From positions 1 to 36,291 of the forward strand of contig VEPM01000040.1 in the NCBI GenBank assembly GCA_012026795.1: 36,291 nt of DNA. The letters run 5' to 3'. Shown in pieces: positions 272-9,783 of the stretch (positions are counted from its first letter, which is position 1; each line of letters opens with the position of its first letter). Under the pieces are notes generated by a model. It was not told the DNA's origin. It saw only the letters and a program-made list of their open reading frames with translations, and ran no database searches. This stretch comes from Candidatus Methanoperedens sp. GTDB lineage: Archaea > Halobacteriota > Methanosarcinia > Methanosarcinales > Methanoperedenaceae. The position numbers and the translations under genes were made by a program.

Positions 272-318
272 TTCTGTCTCCCAGGAGATCTCTGGCCAGC
301 TTACCAGGCTAGACAGAA
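272..318. repeat. 47-bp TTCTGTC/GACAGAA element, copy A
   Basis: The outer inverted repeat is TTCTGTCT...AGACAGAA (8 bp), and inside it CCAG-GAGATCT-CTGG can form a second hairpin. It starts 18 bp beyond the MCM stop codon in the direction of transcription. Copies at 2658, 3204, 4383 and 4436 share the same ends. Copies A, D and E are all exactly 47 bp, and A and E also share CCCAGG after the left box and TA before the right box. Confidence 0.8.
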
Positions 319-335
319 TTATAAAAAAATGAGGC

Positions 336-2552
336 TTATGGTATCCTATACCCGTCCTTCACGCGATACACTTCCCGGGCCCCCTCCATGAGGATCAAGA
401 CGTGTCCTATCTGCACAGTTTCAAGGTTGGTCGTAAATGCAATATCTTCTATTCTCGCAAATCTTTCCTTCTTGCAGATCTCTTGTATTGCCCCTCTGAC
501 CTGCTTCACAAGTTCAGCCTGGCTTTTTGTCCTTCCAAAATTATATATTCCATAATCCTGGTCATCTGACAGCGTGGACAGGCTGGCTCGCATAAGCCCG
601 ATGGCATACTTCACATGCTCTTCCGTGATCTTCGCTGCTAACTCCCTTCGAGCAACGGCCCGGGCAATCCTGTTAATATTATTTACCTGCCTCGCCCCGA
701 TAACAGGATAATCAGCTGATATCGTCCTGAGTTTAAGATAATATTCTTTTATTATTTTCTGTGCGCTCGGTTCAAATTCTGGAACGGGTTTTGTCCTGGC
801 ATATATCACATATTTCTTGAACAGTTCGGGAGTAATAACTCGCGGCATGTTTTTTCTACTCGCTTTTGGGTTGCTATGCATCGAATTTATACTATCTGCA
901 ACAATGCTGTCCCTTTCTTTGTCATGAACGTCACGGACCACGAAGATCATATCGAATCTCTGATATATATAACTCGGAAGGACAGCCCCTATCTGGGATA
1001 TTACATCTTCCTTTTTCAGATATCCTCCCTTTGGATTCGCTGCTCCCAATACAGCAGCACGGGTATTGAACGGGATATCATTCTTTCCTATTTTACTGAC
1101 AAGCTGTATCTGGTCATTAAGAACGGTTACAAGGCAATTAAGATCCTTATCTTCATGCACTTTATCAAGCTCATCCAAACCCGCAACCCCCTGATCTGCC
1201 TGGCTGAAAAAACCACTCTTAACACACCATTCACCCCCTTCCTGAACTGCAACCGTGCTCAATCCCCCCCTTGTCATGTTGGTTACTTGCCCGAATTTCC
1301 CCTTCGGCGCAAGATATACCACATCTCTTATTATCTGTGATTTCGCAACACCGGGATCCCCAAACAACAGCACATGAATACTGCTTCTCTCTATCACATC
1401 ACGCGGGTCAAGGTCCCAACACCAATCAGAGAATAATGATAGGCTGCAAGCGTCCTTGATTTCAAGAGAACCATATATGTTCGGGGCTATCAATTCCAGG
1501 ATAGTTTGTCTAAGTTCAGATGGGGTTTTGGCCCACTCATCAAAAAGCTTGATCTCTTCCTCGGTAGGCGGCTCAGTGTTACTGTCATCTGCAAATTTGA
1601 TGCTGCATACTTCGATCATTTGATCAAAATAAGTTGATTTAGTTTTCGGCCCTATTACCGTTTGTCGGGTCCTCACGATACCACAAACACGGATCACTTT
1701 TGCATCCCGCTCCCAGGGTGGGCGGCACAAGCTTCCGCTGAAATGAGCTGTGATTGTTACCTGGCCGCCTCGAAGTGACTCTATCACTATCTCCTGTGCA
1801 TCCCTATACTCACTCTCAGGGGGGTCAAGAAGCTTGAATGGGCCTTTTCTTTCACAAACATCATTCTCACACAGATATGGTTCAGCATACACTCCACTTT
1901 GCGGCAGATACGTTATTTCACCACACCTAGCACATTTGAATGCGCCAATAACGAGCTCAGATTTCGGAATGATCTGTGTTGCCACCCTCCCCTCCACTTC
2001 TACAAATTTCCCAACATGCCTGGTTTTTATATCTTCTACCTGAAGCACGTTACCAGTATTAATTATACTCACAACAGGCCTGAACTCACTGTCTGCAGGA
2101 GCAATTATTTTACGAAGGGAGTTATTTAATTTATTTATAGCCTGGGTAGGTTTGTTCTCCAACATTTCTACAGCATAAGGGAACCCCTTCAACAGTGTGT
2201 TATACTCTATATCAATAAACTCGTTTTCATCATTAATACAGGTTAAGAACTCGCTCCAATAATATTTTTTGATGAAAGTCTCCATGCTTTTATCGAAATT
2301 TCCATCCGCTCTCTCTGTTCTCTGGAGAGTCTCATATCTCACTCTCCCGCTTTTTGTATATTGGAATTTTGCAGGATCATCACCAATTTTCTCAAAATAA
2401 TCAGTACGGGAAAACGTGTCATTCCACCGACTGATAGCTGTTGCTTTTTCAATCCGCAACCGGTCTGAAATGATATCTATTATTTCCGAACGCGTCCACT
2501 GCTGTTTTCCGGTGTCGCCAAGGAGGGATATGACTGTATCGTAAGTATTCAT
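336..2552 (-). CDS. mcm: MCM-family replicative DNA helicase of an integrated element
   Basis: This is a hexameric AAA+ helicase that unwinds DNA at replication forks. Visible landmarks in the 738 residues are an N-terminal OB-fold region with a zinc-binding set (Cys207, 210, 228, 233), Walker A GDPGVAKS (398-405), a Walker B region ending GLDELDK (458-464), sensor-1 Asn506 in AANP, an arginine finger at Arg532 in QRFDMIF, and a C-terminal winged helix (about 675-738). It is unusual in having about 80 extra N-terminal residues that also read like a winged helix. Walker B has LDELDK where chromosomal MCMs usually have IDEFDK. It is the last gene of a six-gene minus-strand operon next to an integrase, so I take it to be the element's own replication helicase rather than the host one. 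GGGGAG precedes the ATG. Confidence 0.95.
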   Translation of the reverse strand: MNTYDTVISLLGDTGKQQWTRSEIIDIISDRLRIEKATAISRWNDTFSRTDYFEKIGDDPAKFQYTKSGRVRYETLQRTERADGNFDKSMETFIKKYYWSEFLTCINDENEFIDIEYNTLLKGFPYAVEMLENKPTQAINKLNNSLRKIIAPADSEFRPVVSIINTGNVLQVEDIKTRHVGKFVEVEGRVATQIIPKSELVIGAFKCARCGEITYLPQSGVYAEPYLCENDVCERKGPFKLLDPPESEYRDAQEIVIESLRGGQVTITAHFSGSLCRPPWERDAKVIRVCGIVRTRQTVIGPKTKSTYFDQMIEVCSIKFADDSNTEPPTEEEIKLFDEWAKTPSELRQTILELIAPNIYGSLEIKDACSLSLFSDWCWDLDPRDVIERSSIHVLLFGDPGVAKSQIIRDVVYLAPKGKFGQVTNMTRGGLSTVAVQEGGEWCVKSGFFSQADQGVAGLDELDKVHEDKDLNCLVTVLNDQIQLVSKIGKNDIPFNTRAAVLGAANPKGGYLKKEDVISQIGAVLPSYIYQRFDMIFVVRDVHDKERDSIVADSINSMHSNPKASRKNMPRVITPELFKKYVIYARTKPVPEFEPSAQKIIKEYYLKLRTISADYPVIGARQVNNINRIARAVARRELAAKITEEHVKYAIGLMRASLSTLSDDQDYGIYNFGRTKSQAELVKQVRGAIQEICKKERFARIEDIAFTTNLETVQIGHVLILMEGAREVYRVKDGYRIP

Positions 2553-2561
2553 CTTCTCCCC

Positions 2562-3140
2562 TTACTCTTCCGGGTCTAACTCATCCTGCTCTGTATTAAC
2601 CGGGCAATCATCACTATGTGAGCACGACTCACAATCACCCTCATTCCAGCACTTATTTTCTGTCCCTCCGGATATCTGCGATCCTGCCGAGCTCACCCCA
2701 CCCCTGCGGACAGAATCACCTTTGAGTGCCTTCTCAGGATTCTTGAATAGCGGATGTAACAGGTTCTTGCAGTCTTCAAGCCTGAATACAAGGTACTCCA
2801 GGAACAGCCCAATATTAGCCTCATAATCTTTCTGCTCCATGATTAGCTGGCCCCGATACGTCTTTGCAGTGATCGTTCTCATTTCAGGTTCTTTTGGGAG
2901 AATCTTTTTCCATTCTGGTTCGTCTTTTCCGATACATTCAAGCCCACCCGTATCTTTTTCCCTGTACCATTTCGTATATTCATATGTCTTGCCGTTCTTT
3001 TCCATCCGGCTTGTCTTCTGTTTGTAAGACGCCCTTATGCTTCGGCAATCACTCATCCATTTACCGCGTGCAAATTCATTTTTGGATATCAGTTCTTCAA
3101 GAACTCTGCTGGCATTGATCACTACTATTATATTTTTCAT
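2562..3140 (-). CDS. Hypothetical protein with a Cys-rich tail
   Basis: The 192-residue protein is not recognised. Residues 1-135 are charged and look globular. A low-complexity Gly/Ser linker (about 138-163) follows, then a short Cys-rich segment of pattern C-x5-C-x2-C-x5-C that could bind zinc, and an acidic end. The linker is encoded by copy B of the TTCTGTC/GACAGAA element, read in frame. The gene lies 9 bp upstream of the MCM start and 17 bp downstream of the preceding gene, so it is in the same operon. A replication accessory role is only a guess from position. Confidence 0.75.
   Translation of the reverse strand: MKNIIVVINASRVLEELISKNEFARGKWMSDCRSIRASYKQKTSRMEKNGKTYEYTKWYREKDTGGLECIGKDEPEWKKILPKEPEMRTITAKTYRGQLIMEQKDYEANIGLFLEYLVFRLEDCKNLLHPLFKNPEKALKGDSVRRGGVSSAGSQISGGTENKCWNEGDCESCSHSDDCPVNTEQDELDPEE
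2658..2715. repeat. TTCTGTC/GACAGAA element, copy B (58 bp, inside a gene)
   Basis: It has the same boxes as the other copies but is 58 bp long, with a CCCTCCGG start where the others have YYCCAGG. It lies fully inside the 192-residue ORF on the minus strand. There it is entered in the frame GAT-TCT-GTC and encodes a Gly/Ser-rich linker. Confidence 0.75.
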
Positions 3141-3157
3141 AATCTCTCATAAAAAAA

Positions 3158-3526
3158 CTAGGCGGTAAGGGCTGTTGAGTGTGCCCCTCTCAGTTGATCG
3201 TCTTTTCTGTCTTCCATGGGAACAGCTGCAGATCTCACCGGCAGGACAGAATCATAAGCTGAAAGTCGCATGTTTCCTTTGTAATTGAAACCGATACAAA
3301 GCTTATCTGCACCAAACCACACACTGATACCATGCCTGCCACAGAAAGCAAGCAATTTCTTAAGGTCTTGGCATGTCAAAAAAAGCACGCTGTATTTATC
3401 TATTCGCTCATATTTCAGTGACACATCCTGATCGAGAGTGATACAGCTATTACATGAAAGTGCACCGCCCATCTCGTTTTCTTTCAAGAATTGTGAAAAT
3501 AATTCCCTTAACCTTTCTGTTCTCAT
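3158..3526 (-). CDS. Hypothetical element protein
   Basis: This 122-residue protein belongs to no family I recognise. It has an N-terminal amphipathic helix, then CNSC, then alternating hydrophobic strands (about 40-88). Its last 30 residues are polar and partly encoded by copy C of the repeated palindromic element. The start ATG overlaps the stop of the upstream gene as ATGA, which indicates translational coupling in the MCM operon. Confidence 0.7.
   Translation of the reverse strand: MRTERLRELFSQFLKENEMGGALSCNSCITLDQDVSLKYERIDKYSVLFLTCQDLKKLLAFCGRHGISVWFGADKLCIGFNYKGNMRLSAYDSVLPVRSAAVPMEDRKDDQLRGAHSTALTA
3204..3251. repeat. TTCTGTC/GACAGAA element, copy C (48 bp, inside a gene)
   Basis: The boxes TTCTGTC and GACAGAA are 48 bp end to end, with TTCCATGG after the left box and AGATCTCA in the middle. 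On the coding strand it is entered in the same frame as copy B (GAT-TCT-GTC, Asp-Ser-Val) and encodes part of the polar C-terminal tail of the 122-residue protein. Confidence 0.75.
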
Positions 3527-3876
3527 CTTTCCTCTTTTTTATTTTGGTTGAAAACTTCGTGTTTTTCTTCTTTATCATCTCTTTCCCCACTCTCTGCTGG
3601 TTTTATCCTGATACCATGAAACGGTATAATCTCCAAAAACCCTTCATCCCTCAAATCATAAAGTAGCTCGTCGCGTTCTTGTTTTTGTACTCTCCACCAC
3701 GATAGAATCCGTTTTACCTCCGGGAATGAGATAATCTTATTTTTGGAATATGCCCGCGTCCTCAATGCTTGTAAAAAAAACCTCCTTACGTCTTTATTAG
3801 CAGAAGGTGCAATCTTAACAGTGGGATCTGTTTTCGAGTTCTGCCCGCTGGTAACGGGCGGTACTTTCCCTATCAT
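3523..3876 (-). CDS. Hypothetical protein, possible winged-helix fold
   Basis: I choose the ATG at 3876 because it forms an ATGA overlap with the preceding stop and follows GGGGGAG; an upstream in-frame ATG at 3918 has neither. The 117-residue product has a disordered N-terminus and a central segment (about 28-90) rich in Arg and aromatic residues. Its pattern, with a WWRVQKQERDELLYDL helix followed by 'EGFLEIIPFHGIRI', suggests a winged helix. The tail is highly charged. Function is unknown; DNA binding is an inference from the pattern and from its place in a replication-type operon. Confidence 0.7.
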   Translation of the reverse strand: MIGKVPPVTSGQNSKTDPTVKIAPSANKDVRRFFLQALRTRAYSKNKIISFPEVKRILSWWRVQKQERDELLYDLRDEGFLEIIPFHGIRIKPAESGERDDKEEKHEVFNQNKKEER

Positions 3877-4028
3877 TTTTGCTCCCCCTGCTCTGCTGCC
3901 TCTATAATCTCCTTGCAAGTTTGTGATAGCAGGGGATTGTCAGACTTTGCCCATTGTTTGATCTCATCACCTTGGGCCTTCATTCGCCCCTCAGCAAAGT
4001 TAATAAAAGATAGTTTGTATTTACTCAT
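3873..4028 (-). CDS. Small hypothetical protein (51 aa)
   Basis: The ATG at 4028 lies inside the end of the ribbon-helix-helix gene (8-bp overlap), and the stop overlaps the next gene as ATGA. This is tight coupling within the operon. An upstream ATG at 4100 would add 24 residues but would sit deep inside the preceding gene. The product is charged and helical, with one Cys, and no family is recognised. Confidence 0.6.
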   Translation of the reverse strand: MSKYKLSFINFAEGRMKAQGDEIKQWAKSDNPLLSQTCKEIIEAAEQGEQK

Positions 4029-4224
4029 GCTGCATCCTTCCCGATTGATGGGTGTGGCTGCATTCCGCTGGTTCTCTTGCCAGGGTTTCAGCGGGTGCAA
4101 ATTCTTTTACTCTCTGTACTATCCAATTGCGAATTAAGGAGGTATAAGGCAACTCTTCATTTTTCGCAATTTCTTTGACCCGACCCAGGGTCTTTTCTGA
4201 AAGTTGAAGATTAACTTGTTTCAT
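4021..4224 (-). CDS. Ribbon-helix-helix transcriptional regulator
   Basis: I take the ATG at 4224, which follows AGGTGA with 8-bp spacing; the longer reading from 4299 would cover the promoter. The first 42 residues match a ribbon-helix-helix (Arc/CopG) pattern: strand MKQVNLQLS, helix EKTLGRVKEIAKNE, turn LPYTS, helix LIRNWIVQRVKEF. Such proteins bind operator DNA as dimers. It is the first gene of the operon that ends with MCM, so autoregulation of the operon is a reasonable inference. An antitoxin role is possible, but there is no recognisable toxin beside it. Confidence 0.75.
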   Translation of the reverse strand: MKQVNLQLSEKTLGRVKEIAKNEELPYTSLIRNWIVQRVKEFAPAETLAREPAECSHTHQSGRMQHE

Positions 4225-4257
4225 AGGGATTTCACCTATGCAGCATAGGTTTTTAGT

Positions 4258-4270
4258 CATATATAAAAAG
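4258..4270 (-). promoter_or_regulatory. TATA box of the MCM operon
   Basis: On the minus strand the sequence reads CTTTTTATATATG, a good archaeal TATA box, about 35-45 bp upstream of the ATG of the ribbon-helix-helix gene. It is the only strong candidate in front of the six-gene operon. Confidence 0.55.
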
Positions 4271-4382
4271 AACATAAACAAATATAACATATTATACAAA
4301 TTATACTAATTCCAAAATAAAGTATACGTCTTTTTCTGGTAAAAACATAGGGGGTTATCGGAATCAATAAAACCCCATTGAT

Positions 4383-4429
4383 TTCTGTCTTCCAGGAATC
4401 TGGAGATCTCATCTGCAGCACGGACAGAA
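4383..4429. repeat. 47-bp TTCTGTC/GACAGAA element, copy D
   Basis: The ends TTTCTGTC...GACAGAAA form an 8-bp perfect stem. It contains the TTCCAGG box and GAGATCTCA. It is followed after 6 bp by copy E in the same orientation. Confidence 0.8.
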
Positions 4430-4435
4430 AATCTA

Positions 4436-4482
4436 TTCTGTCCCCCAGGCAGCCCAGGCCTGTGATCGGGACCTAGACAGAA
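4436..4482. repeat. 47-bp TTCTGTC/GACAGAA element, copy E
   Basis: The ends ATTCTGTC...GACAGAAT form an 8-bp perfect stem when one flanking base each side is counted. The interior has CCCCCAGG and CCTAGACAGAA, closest to copy A. It lies about 60 bp beyond the 3' end of the integrase gene. Confidence 0.8.
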
Positions 4483-4544: not shown

Positions 4545-5627
4545 TTATTGCTTCGCTGCCATCGCTGCCGTGATAAGCTCCATCTGACGTTTCATGGTCT
4601 CCATATCTGCTTTTTGCTTATCCATTTGTGCCTTTAGCTCACTGTTTTCCTCGGCGAGCTTCTTACTATCCTTACAGGTCTTGCATAAGCTGCCTGCCTG
4701 GATCAATCGCCCACATTCAACACATCTTGAAGCTAAGGGGTTTATTATGGTCTTGCCGTTGCCATTCTCGCCCATGCCCTTGGCGTCTCTGTATCCACTG
4801 CTCTTTAATTGCTCTCGAAGGTGAATATATGTAGAAAGCATAGCGCTATGAGGTATCCCCCAAAATCTATAAGATAATTGTGTTTCGCTTAAATTCAATC
4901 CTGCTGCGTGGGTAATGGCTGAATGCCTGAAATTATGCGGATTAACGGGTTTTGTGGTGCCTGCGAGTTTCGCTAATTTTCTCAAAATAAGTATAACTCC
5001 CATCTGGGATAAATCGAAAAATTGTTTAGAAGGATTGCATTTTAGCCATTCTTGGACATATCCATAAATTTCTAAGCAAATAACCGATCTTGAGCCAGTC
5101 TTGCATCCTTCAATATTTGGGATATGGAGCGTTACTTCCTGTTTCATATCATCCGATTCTATCATATCGATGGTTAATGACAATAGCTCACCAATCCTTA
5201 ATCCTGATTCAAACAGGGTTGCGACAATACAACGGTCTCTCTCAATAGTCGCAACATTGATGAGCTTCTTAATATCCTCCGGTGTCAAGATATCAGACGG
5301 GTTTATAGTCCGTTTCCCCTTGGATATCTGCATCCGTTTAACTTTTCTCATCATGATTGAGTACTTTTCGTTATCCGTTTCATCTAGGCAAAACTGATAA
5401 AATTGAATAAATCGCTGCTGGCATAAATGGATAGAACTATTTTTCTGGTTTTTGTCCCTCAATCCTTCAAAGTACTTCTTTAAATCCTCAATAGTTAAAT
5501 TCTCAATGGGCTTTCCAATATCGCTTTGTGCATTTTCCAAAGTCGATTTGATAACATCTAATGTGTTCTTTGTTCTTCCCTTTGAGATTAGGCTATTTTT
5601 AAATTCTTCAAGTAAATCGGATCTCAT
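4545..5627 (-). CDS. Tyrosine recombinase/integrase with zinc ribbon and coiled coil
   Basis: This 360-residue site-specific recombinase would integrate or excise the element. Residues 1-90 form a SAM-like core-binding domain. The catalytic domain shows the first Arg in ESGLRIGELLSL, the HxxR box HNFRHS, and the nucleophilic Tyr in LSTYIHL. The C-terminus adds CVECGRL...CKTC, a zinc ribbon, followed by about 40 residues of heptad-like coiled coil. That tail is seen in archaeal XerC-like integrases. The gene ends about 60 bp from copies D/E and starts about 80 bp from a direct repeat at the DUF2240 stop codon, both possible recombination sites. All catalytic residues I can place are present, so it may be active. 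Confidence 0.93.
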   Translation of the reverse strand: MRSDLLEEFKNSLISKGRTKNTLDVIKSTLENAQSDIGKPIENLTIEDLKKYFEGLRDKNQKNSSIHLCQQRFIQFYQFCLDETDNEKYSIMMRKVKRMQISKGKRTINPSDILTPEDIKKLINVATIERDRCIVATLFESGLRIGELLSLTIDMIESDDMKQEVTLHIPNIEGCKTGSRSVICLEIYGYVQEWLKCNPSKQFFDLSQMGVILILRKLAKLAGTTKPVNPHNFRHSAITHAAGLNLSETQLSYRFWGIPHSAMLSTYIHLREQLKSSGYRDAKGMGENGNGKTIINPLASRCVECGRLIQAGSLCKTCKDSKKLAEENSELKAQMDKQKADMETMKRQMELITAAMAAKQ

Positions 5628-5709
5628 TTCATCACCATTGTAACTAATGCTACCGCTTACTATTTAAAATATCCCAAGTTTTTTAAGTACTTTTACGAAG
5701 AAGACAAAA

Positions 5710-5742
5710 TAGTTAAAGCTACATAGTAGTTAAAGCTGCATA
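5710..5742. repeat. Direct repeat at the 3' end of the DUF2240 gene
   Basis: TAGTTAAAGCTACATA (5710-5725) is repeated as TAGTTAAAGCTGCATA (5727-5742), one mismatch in 16 at a 17-bp offset. It covers the DUF2240 stop codon and faces the integrase gene. A 3' gene end beside an integrase is the classic place for an attachment site, but I found no second copy at the other side of the element. Confidence 0.5.
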
Positions 5743-6774: not shown

Positions 6775-6864
6775 ATGAATTTCCCCTTTGAAATAAACAC
6801 GGATTAGTTTCACCCCGCTCAGCTAAGATTCAAGACCAAAACTATCCATACGACAATATGAAAT

Positions 6865-7512
6865 ATGAATAGCAAAACTCCCTCTTTCGTACTGGAACTA
6901 CCATTAGAAACCACATCAGTACAGGAGACCGACATTTTAACACGGCTGGAAGCTGGAAGGCATTTGTATAATGCCTGTCTTGGAGAAGCTCTGAAAAGAC
7001 TTGACCTTATCAGGCAGTCCAAAGAGTACAAGAAAATCATAGTATTACCAGCAGGTAAAGAAAGAACTGAAAAATTCAGAAATTTGAATGGAGAATACGG
7101 TTTCACAGAGTATGCTCTTCATGATCATGCCGGTACGATAAGAGATAGTTGGATCAAAGAGCATATCAACAGCCATATAACACAGAAAATAGCTACAAGA
7201 GCGTTCAAAGCGGTCCAGAAAAAGGCATTCGGGAAAGCCAAAAATGTAAGGTTCAAAGGCAAGAACCAGTTCGATACCCTCGAAGGGAAAAATAACCTGA
7301 CCGGGTTAATTTTCAGGAATAATACGTTATACTGGTCGGGTCTGGAAATACCATGCATGATCGATGAAACTAATAAAGTCATCGCATACGGCTTAAAATC
7401 TGAACATAAGATCAAATACTGCCGGATCGTCAGGAGAAAGATCTATTCAAAGAACAGGTTCTATGTCCAGCTCATCCTTGAAGGAAAACCCTACCCAGAA
7501 ACCAGAACATAA
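6865..7512 (+). CDS. tnpB: TnpB N-terminal part (split by a frameshift)
   Basis: These 215 residues are the helical/WED-like N-terminal half of an IS605 OrfB (TnpB) protein, an RNA-guided nuclease that maintains IS elements. Recognisable parts are the early LEAGRHLYNACLGEALKRL motif and the strand YVQLILEGKP that normally runs directly into the RuvC domain. The frame ends 13 codons after that strand, and the RuvC domain continues in the +1 frame from 7463. The gene is therefore disrupted unless ribosomes shift frame or the halves reassemble. No A-rich slippery heptamer fits the overlap. Start ATG at 6865. Confidence 0.8.
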   Translation: MNSKTPSFVLELPLETTSVQETDILTRLEAGRHLYNACLGEALKRLDLIRQSKEYKKIIVLPAGKERTEKFRNLNGEYGFTEYALHDHAGTIRDSWIKEHINSHITQKIATRAFKAVQKKAFGKAKNVRFKGKNQFDTLEGKNNLTGLIFRNNTLYWSGLEIPCMIDETNKVIAYGLKSEHKIKYCRIVRRKIYSKNRFYVQLILEGKPYPETRT

Positions 7513-8371
7513 GATAGGTAATGAAGAAATAGGCCTGGATGTTGGTCCAGGTACAATAGCTATTGTGGGAGGTACAAAAGCTGAATTGAAACAGTTCTGC
7601 AGTGAACTTGTATCTAAACAGGAAGAGAAACGGAAACTGCAGAGGAAAATGGACAGGCAGAGACGGGCAAATAACCCCCAGAATTATAATACGAATGGAA
7701 ATGTCAAGAAGGGTAAGAAGAAATGGAAAAAATCCAATCATTATAACAAAACAAGCAGTCAGGCAGCAGAACTCGATAGGAAATTGGCTGTCCACAGAAA
7801 ATCTCTTCATGGAAAAGATATTAACGAGATCATAGCCATGGGAACGAGAATAAAGACCGAAAAAATCTCCTACAAGTCATGGCAGAAGAATTTTGGAAAA
7901 TCAGTGCTAATGAGAGCACCGTCAATGTTCATAAGTAACCTCAAAAGAAAAGCTGAGAATGCTGGAGGATACTTGAACGAATTCCCTACAAACAGCACAA
8001 AGCTGTCTCAGGTATGCCATATCTGCGGAAATGCAGTTAAAAAACCGCTCAGCCAGAGATGGCATATTTGCTGTGGTATAGAAATGCAAAGAGACCTGTA
8101 TTCAGCATTTCTGAGCAAATGTGTTGATGTGAAAAGTAACTCCCTTGATATAGCCAGGGCAAAATTGCTCTGGCCAGGTCTGGAACCAGTCCTGAACGAA
8201 GCGGTATCAAGGGCATACCAATCTGCAAATGGTGGGAAAATCCTTCCTGCCAGCTTCGGAGTAGGCCGGAGACTGAGCGGATCGCCCGTTAAACCGGAAG
8301 CGACTATAACTGAGGCTGTGGATGCTGTAATCCGAATCAATGAAGATGAGAGCCACAGAGAGGTTATATAA
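7463..8371 (+). CDS. tnpB: TnpB C-terminal part, RuvC and zinc finger (split by a frameshift)
   Basis: This carries the catalytic half of TnpB. RuvC-I Asp is in EIGLDVGPG. RuvC-II Glu is probably in TRIKTEKISYKSW. The zinc finger is CHICG...CC, and RuvC-III Asp is in MQRDLYSAFL. The usual acidic residues therefore appear intact, although the finger's last pair is CC rather than CxxC. A Lys-rich insert (KKGKKKWKKSNHYN) lies between RuvC-I and II. Homology starts about 20 codons into this frame, which overlaps the N-terminal ORF by 50 bp in another frame. An internal ATG at 7463 exists but has no clear ribosome site. Confidence 0.8.
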   Translation: MSSSSLKENPTQKPEHKIGNEEIGLDVGPGTIAIVGGTKAELKQFCSELVSKQEEKRKLQRKMDRQRRANNPQNYNTNGNVKKGKKKWKKSNHYNKTSSQAAELDRKLAVHRKSLHGKDINEIIAMGTRIKTEKISYKSWQKNFGKSVLMRAPSMFISNLKRKAENAGGYLNEFPTNSTKLSQVCHICGNAVKKPLSQRWHICCGIEMQRDLYSAFLSKCVDVKSNSLDIARAKLLWPGLEPVLNEAVSRAYQSANGGKILPASFGVGRRLSGSPVKPEATITEAVDAVIRINEDESHREVI

Positions 8372-9301: not shown

Positions 9302-9783
9302 TATCTTTTATAACCAATAGTTCGAAGGAATGATCTTCTTTCTTCTTTGTCCGCTGTGCTTTCAATCCCCTTTGGTTTTTCACCATCAATGACGCCAAGT
9401 ATGCCCCGGCCCAGGTTCGTTTCAGCTATAATAACTTCCACTGGATTGGATGTAGCGCAAAAAATATTACATACTTCCTGAATACTTTTAACCGGATTCA
9501 GGACATTTATGGGGTATGCATTTCGCATGAATATTATGAAGCTATGGCCGCAGCCAAGTTCCATGGCATTACTCTGCGCCGCTTTGATAAGTTCCTCATC
9601 ATTTCCATCACTCCTTACAAGACATTTTCCCGATGCCTCGCAAAAGGCCAGGCCAAATTTAATCCCCGGGGCCGAAGTGATAAGTGCTTCGTAAAGATCC
9701 TCAGCGCTTTTTATGAAATGCGACTGGCCAAGGATCAGGTTCGTATCGGAAGGCGCCGTTATTTGTATAGATTTTAGTTCCAT
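9301..9783 (-). CDS. Adenosine-specific kinase (DUF355 family)
   Basis: The 160-residue protein matches the small adenosine-specific kinase family (Adenosine_kin/DUF355) from end to end: [70 protein letters not shown] and a C-terminal IGYKR. Family knowledge suggests adenosine binding; the physiological role is unclear. GGGAG precedes the ATG. It is followed without a gap by thrB. A TATA-like box (9819-9830) gives this two-gene operon its own promoter. Confidence 0.92.

Follow-up and report, generated by a model that had tools for sequence, protein, structure and literature searches.

The integrative elements of Candidatus Methanoperedens carry a family of short sites, each bounded by TTCTGTC on the left and GACAGAA on the right, that lie at gene edges and coincide with points at which homology between elements breaks off. 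We collected 61 copies, from 7 of 31 Methanoperedens genomes and two stray contigs, and every copy is within an integrative element. The boxes are invariant, the spacing between them is quantized, and the interior is built of palindromic words and has no RNA structure. Our best explanation, which we advance with somewhat less than even confidence, is that the copies are protein-bound linker sites where gene modules have been joined or exchanged.

Five copies had been claimed in the window, i.e., the whole 36,291-nt stretch that was analyzed (contig C40 of its genome). All five are present, with none in the remainder of the 36 kb, and the shuffle control set by the initial annotation gave an expected 0.00 paired-box copies in 100 dinucleotide shuffles versus the five observed. 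Copy A (272–318; 47 bp, exact 7-bp boxes, N33) lies 17 bp past the stop codon of the MCM helicase gene of the element (336–2552, minus strand; Pfam MCM, E = 1.2e-41). Copy B (2658–2715; 58 bp, N44) is within the 3′ part of an ORF at 2562–3140, and a 58-bp copy occurs at the corresponding position in genome G007. Copy C, previously placed at 3204–3251 with a length of 48 bp, runs from 3205 to 3251; it is therefore one of four 47-bp copies rather than a class of its own, while the 58-bp length of B stands. It has a type II interior and lies within the 3′ part of an ORF at 3158–3526. Copies D (4383–4429) and E (4436–4482), both 47 bp, are 6 bp apart, and E is 62 bp past the stop codon of a tyrosine integrase gene (4545–5627, minus strand; Pfam Phage_integrase, E = 6.7e-12). 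The first gene of the operon is a CopG-like ORF (4021–4299, minus strand; Pfam score 25.7, under the 28-bit cut-off). Copies A, C and D share AGATCTC, as had been reported.

Homology of the chromosome to its relatives ends at window position 5721, and the chromosome runs from about 5720. The opposite flank of the locus is found on contig C35 (positions 6814–8309). The attR core, TTTTACGAAGAAGAC, is at 5691–5705 of the window, and attL is on C35 at the 3′ end of a gene encoding a 91-aa protein that we read as rpoL. Genome G018 has the empty site, with continuous sequence across the rpoL 3′ end. The presence of TTTTACGAAGAAGAC at the junctions of both C35 and C40 is the direct repeat expected from integration into a gene 3′ end; hence, the two contigs represent opposite ends of a single integration locus, or of elements integrated there in tandem. 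The integrated locus covers 12.5 kb or more, not counting a gap, and all 14 copies lie within it. Because the att core is the rpoL 3′ end, and no copy is at a junction, the copies are not the att core. The suggestion that they are “recombination sites” thus fails for integrase attachment; for module boundaries, it is the best supported of the three guesses in the initial annotation.

Three further observations concern integration. The locus has two different tyrosine integrases (window 4545–5627 and L014:3987–4922), possibly reflecting tandem elements in one site. A 27-kb contig (G018:C12, BLZ2 contig 1389; L158:1–40 and the end of L159) has the same 16 bp, GATGCTCCGATGGGGA, at both termini, beside tRNA-like 3′ sequence, and represents an element that is either circular or inserted into a tRNA gene. 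Lastly, the G007 and G022 elements (end of L162; L163:about 9310–9340) adjoin one and the same gene at its 3′ end (...GGATGCGATATAG), which suggests a common integration site.

The genomes with real copies, among the 31 of the genus, are the window’s own, G018, G020, G007, G022, G012 and G005; recurrence in elements of six other genomes is the conservation that had been named as a check. In the window’s own genome, all 14 copies are in the element: 12 are exact (five on the window contig and seven on C35) and two, on C35, have one mismatch. A box pair on C28, with N36 and an interior that is not palindromic, looks like chance. In the other genomes, copies cluster on a single contig per genome; G020 has one further copy, with one box mismatch, near an integrase on C57. 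Copy-bearing contigs include those of Candidatus Methanoperedens BLZ2, FeB_1, LC_1 and others. Chromosomes have zero copies, and there are none in the ~16 searched genomes of other genera in the same order. A scan of genome contigs for exact boxes found real copies only in Methanoperedens and in two contigs binned as Ruminiclostridium sp. MnB_11, the interior pattern being absent from the remaining hits. The two contigs, VEPD01000206.1 (L191) and VEPD01000383.1 (L205), have Methanoperedens-type sites, integrases and a toxin–antitoxin module. Since they carry the sites and share modules with Methanoperedens elements, the binning is probably wrong, and they are probably misbinned archaeal mobile DNA. 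Box hits in IMG/VR look like chance, relatives of the window MCM are absent from IMG/VR, and BLAST of copies D and E against PLSDB plasmids and INPHARED phages gave no match. As the initial annotation had it, the copies are confined to integrated elements, which they punctuate, and a genome-wide mobile repeat is ruled out by the searches of the window’s own genome and the 31 genomes. The portions of the Methanoperedens literature that we covered, e.g., of PMC9674854 and PMC13079737, contain no description of such sites; the part of PMC13079737 consulted describes only short tandem repeats of 20–33 bp, in another element. Within this partial coverage, the family is previously unreported.

The two boxes are reverse complements of each other. 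The base inside the left box is C or T and that inside the right box is mostly G or A, giving inverted ends of 7–8 bp. The copy as a whole is not a palindrome, contrary to its first description as a “palindromic element”; its inverted repeats are the ends only, between which many short palindromes form a mosaic. A scan of 93 kb of element DNA for the next opposite box after TTCTGTC, with no spacing assumed, yielded gaps of 33 bp (39 times), 43 bp (8 times), 44 bp (twice) and 45 bp (once), and otherwise singletons. Sites are thus 47 bp or 57–59 bp long with fixed 7-base ends, the two spacing classes being about one helical turn apart. Gaps between neighboring copies are mostly 4–6 or 12–16 bp. 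One fused copy (L163:13591–13673) has two 33-bp interiors linked by GTC, as if GACAGAA, the spacer and TTCT had been deleted. The G+C content is 61% in interiors and 41% in flanks. Perfect 6-bp palindromes, including AGATCT, CTGCAG, TCCGGA, CAGCTG, GATATC and AGGCCT, number 122 in the 61 interiors, compared with 38.0 in dinucleotide shuffles (sd 6.0, max 59). GC-matched Methanoperedens 33-mers have 0.32 each, versus 1.96 for the sites. The excess holds with one representative of each of 19 subtypes (33.7 versus 10.6).

Interiors are strongly divergent yet sort into about 19 subtypes, which recur between genomes (best-partner identity 0.73, versus 0.48 when shuffled) and are found again at corresponding places in elements. 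Copies from one genome resemble each other (0.412) no more closely than copies from different genomes do (0.410), which argues against recent amplification. This bears on the third original guess, a small parasitic repeat, to which we give a minor share of the probability. In a more specific form, a mobile repeat like a MITE or GC cluster, with terminal inverted repeats of 7–8 bp, would depend for its movement on an unlinked transposase with a preference for the 3′ ends of genes on plasmid-like elements. The copies do have such ends, are GC-rich relative to their flanks, and occur in tandem and within gene ends; moreover, their offset from the same antitoxin stop codon varies from 0 to about 20 bp in five elements. 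However, no two copies within an element are near-identical, none are in chromosomes, length classes are strict, decayed copies are almost absent, a target-site duplication is not obvious on inspection of the flanks, and the gene groups of the elements include no common transposase family. We therefore regard a repeat of this type as rather unlikely. Prokaryotic MITEs, Rickettsia palindromic elements and yeast mitochondrial GC clusters (PMC10969869, PMC4478555) are likewise small, GC-rich and partly palindromic repeats within AT-rich DNA, in some cases at ORF ends; the sites described here differ in being element-confined and of fixed length, without recent amplification or a hairpin.

The symmetry of the interiors belongs to duplex DNA words rather than hairpins, since inverted repeats are enriched only with spacers of 0–2, not with loops of three or longer, and as RNA the copies fold no more stably than shuffled sequence (mean z +0.32). 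The copies have no match in Rfam. Together, these three results rule out an RNA hairpin or terminator. Position had made a role in the transcript, i.e., at its 3′ end, in processing or as a hairpin, worth weighing: the boxes could pair, and 28 of the 61 copies are within 100 bp of a gene 3′ end, whereas random placement gives 12.1. Random intergenic placement gives a mean of 17.1 (max 28), however, and 22 of the 61 are within 100 bp of a gene 5′ end, so that an RNA-level element is largely refuted and, in our estimate, very improbable. The copies belong to gene edges, with no more than a slight preference for the 3′ side. A coding element with a conserved peptide was also rejected; a frame is often open (SV...DR), but it shows neither avoidance of stops nor conservation of the peptide.

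The commonest gene family shared by the elements is the tyrosine integrase, of at least two subgroups. In every repeat-bearing genome but G005, the G005 contig being only 7 kb, it adjoins copies; the G007 integrase belongs to the same element as the copies, but the contig end truncates its 3′ flank. In two cases (L191:2273 and L159:5742), the integrase stop codon is inside a copy, so the site encodes the integrase C-terminus. Copies flank a toxin–antitoxin module (DUF4258 plus an MqsA/MazE-like protein) on both sides in C35, G012 and VEPD01000206. Replication genes vary: elements have MCM (C40, G018, G020, G007, G012), PrimPol (G022) or a DnaA-like gene (G020). Most MCM-bearing elements carry the sites, although an MCM fragment in G023 has no copy within the 3.2 kb read. 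The proposal that the copies are initiator sites for the MCM system is unsupported, and MCM-specific sites or iterons are rejected, as the G022 element and, in the stretches read, the VEPD contigs have sites without an element-type MCM.

A broader alternative is that the copies bind a common partition, replication or regulatory protein, and that breakpoints fall there only because unrelated elements share the bound sequence. The boxes are invariant and lie on one helical face, the words have dyad symmetry, elements have several sites, D and E are positioned upstream of the operon, and subtypes recur at corresponding places, all of which is consistent with such a protein. By contrast, the copies are placed not at promoters but at the 3′ ends of genes, between converging genes and within the ends of ORFs, the elements have no replication gene in common, the interiors are too diverse for one protein, and the 7 bp in common are too short for ordinary homologous exchange. 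On balance, we think this explanation is probably not the right one.

The linker reading draws on where homology ends. In BLAST comparisons of elements, 12 of the 68 ends of homology blocks 100 bp or longer are at a copy on both sequences, against a mean of 0.11 and a maximum of 4 in 2000 circular shifts; in this comparison, some blocks are the copies themselves, only four high-identity blocks are informative, and the null is lenient because homology naturally fades at gene ends. We therefore place more weight on close pairs. From copy to copy, G018 and VEPD01000206 share the toxin–antitoxin module at 92.6% identity, yet the interiors next to it are unrelated (30% identity versus a background of 34%). 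On the 5′ side of the module, homology reaches the box; on the 3′ side, it ends at the stop codon, with copies 0 (G005), 9 or 12 bp further on. Homology at integrase 3′ ends likewise stops about 10 bp short of the box. Joins can thus lie away from the box. An internal 150-bp duplication of VEPD01000206 terminates at a box. Over 122 bp, the D/E pairs of C40 and C35 are 92% identical, with identity ending 2 bp past the E box, and the pair is inverted relative to the integrase between the two contigs; similarly, a type I copy next to the integrase has opposite orientations relative to it in G018 and VEPD01000206. We count the quantized spacing, the breakpoints at copies, the flanking of modules, the inversions, the 150-bp duplication and the adjoining integrases in favor of linker sites. 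Against them, we count the joins away from the box, the lenient null, the presence of more than one integrase subgroup with the same boxes, and the 33-bp spacing, which misfits the standard tyrosine-recombinase core of two arms around 6–8 bp.

We infer protein binding, recombination activity and a type of enzyme as follows. A protein would bind both inverted 7–8 bp boxes, which would have to hold one rotational phase, at 40 bp or about 51 bp center to center. The palindromic words could be contacts of dimeric DNA-binding subunits. The protein would probably be a recombinase, either host-encoded or common to the elements, and it would act at the sites or beside them to join modules (toxin–antitoxin, integrase and replication genes), invert them or exchange them between elements. 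With at least two integrase subgroups accompanying the same boxes, no integrase is clearly cognate, and a host factor, as Xer is at pdif, is at least as likely as an element integrase.

The closest known analogue is the pdif (dif) modules of Acinetobacter plasmids (PMC13141974, PMC6449649), in which short conserved sites with conserved arms and a variable middle similarly lie between genes of plasmid-like DNA, in modules that shuffle and often have toxin–antitoxin genes. A pdif site has distinct XerC and XerD arms around a 6-bp spacer (PMC13141974). The sites described here do not have this defining architecture (11-bp arm, 6-bp spacer and 11-bp arm; 28 bp); their boxes are 7 bp, inverted, and 33 or 43–45 bp apart around a palindromic-word interior. 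As with pdif, gene modules are flanked by sites (the toxin–antitoxin module in three elements) and appear to have been exchanged between replicons, with breakpoints at copies. Integron attC sites also have inverted 7-bp outer boxes, a variable middle, frequent location at gene 3′ ends and a tyrosine integrase nearby, all of which recur here. An attC site folds into one imperfect hairpin with its R and L boxes paired, whereas the interiors here have no hairpin and copies flank genes on both sides and in both orientations. The element integrases match general Phage_integrase/SAM families. The Borg repeats of Methanoperedens (PMC9879509) also occur on extrachromosomal DNA in this genus, but are tandem direct repeats; the sites here are dispersed, inverted at their ends and each different.

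The modular evolution of archaeal plasmids is well known, and its mechanism is usually taken to be recombination, either homologous or illegitimate. A defined family of boundary sites whose geometry can be measured allows that mechanism to be tested, and fixed-length, palindrome-tiled interiors are unusual. TTCTGTC-N33/43–45-GACAGAA is a marker for Methanoperedens integrative elements in metagenomes. More speculatively, and in our view less likely than not, the sites may belong to a novel site-specific module-exchange system in archaeal mobile DNA, in which sites of fixed length would present invariant boxes on one helical face, interchangeable palindromic words would act as specificity codes, and a putative enzyme would recombine the sites and so shuffle modules among integrative elements.
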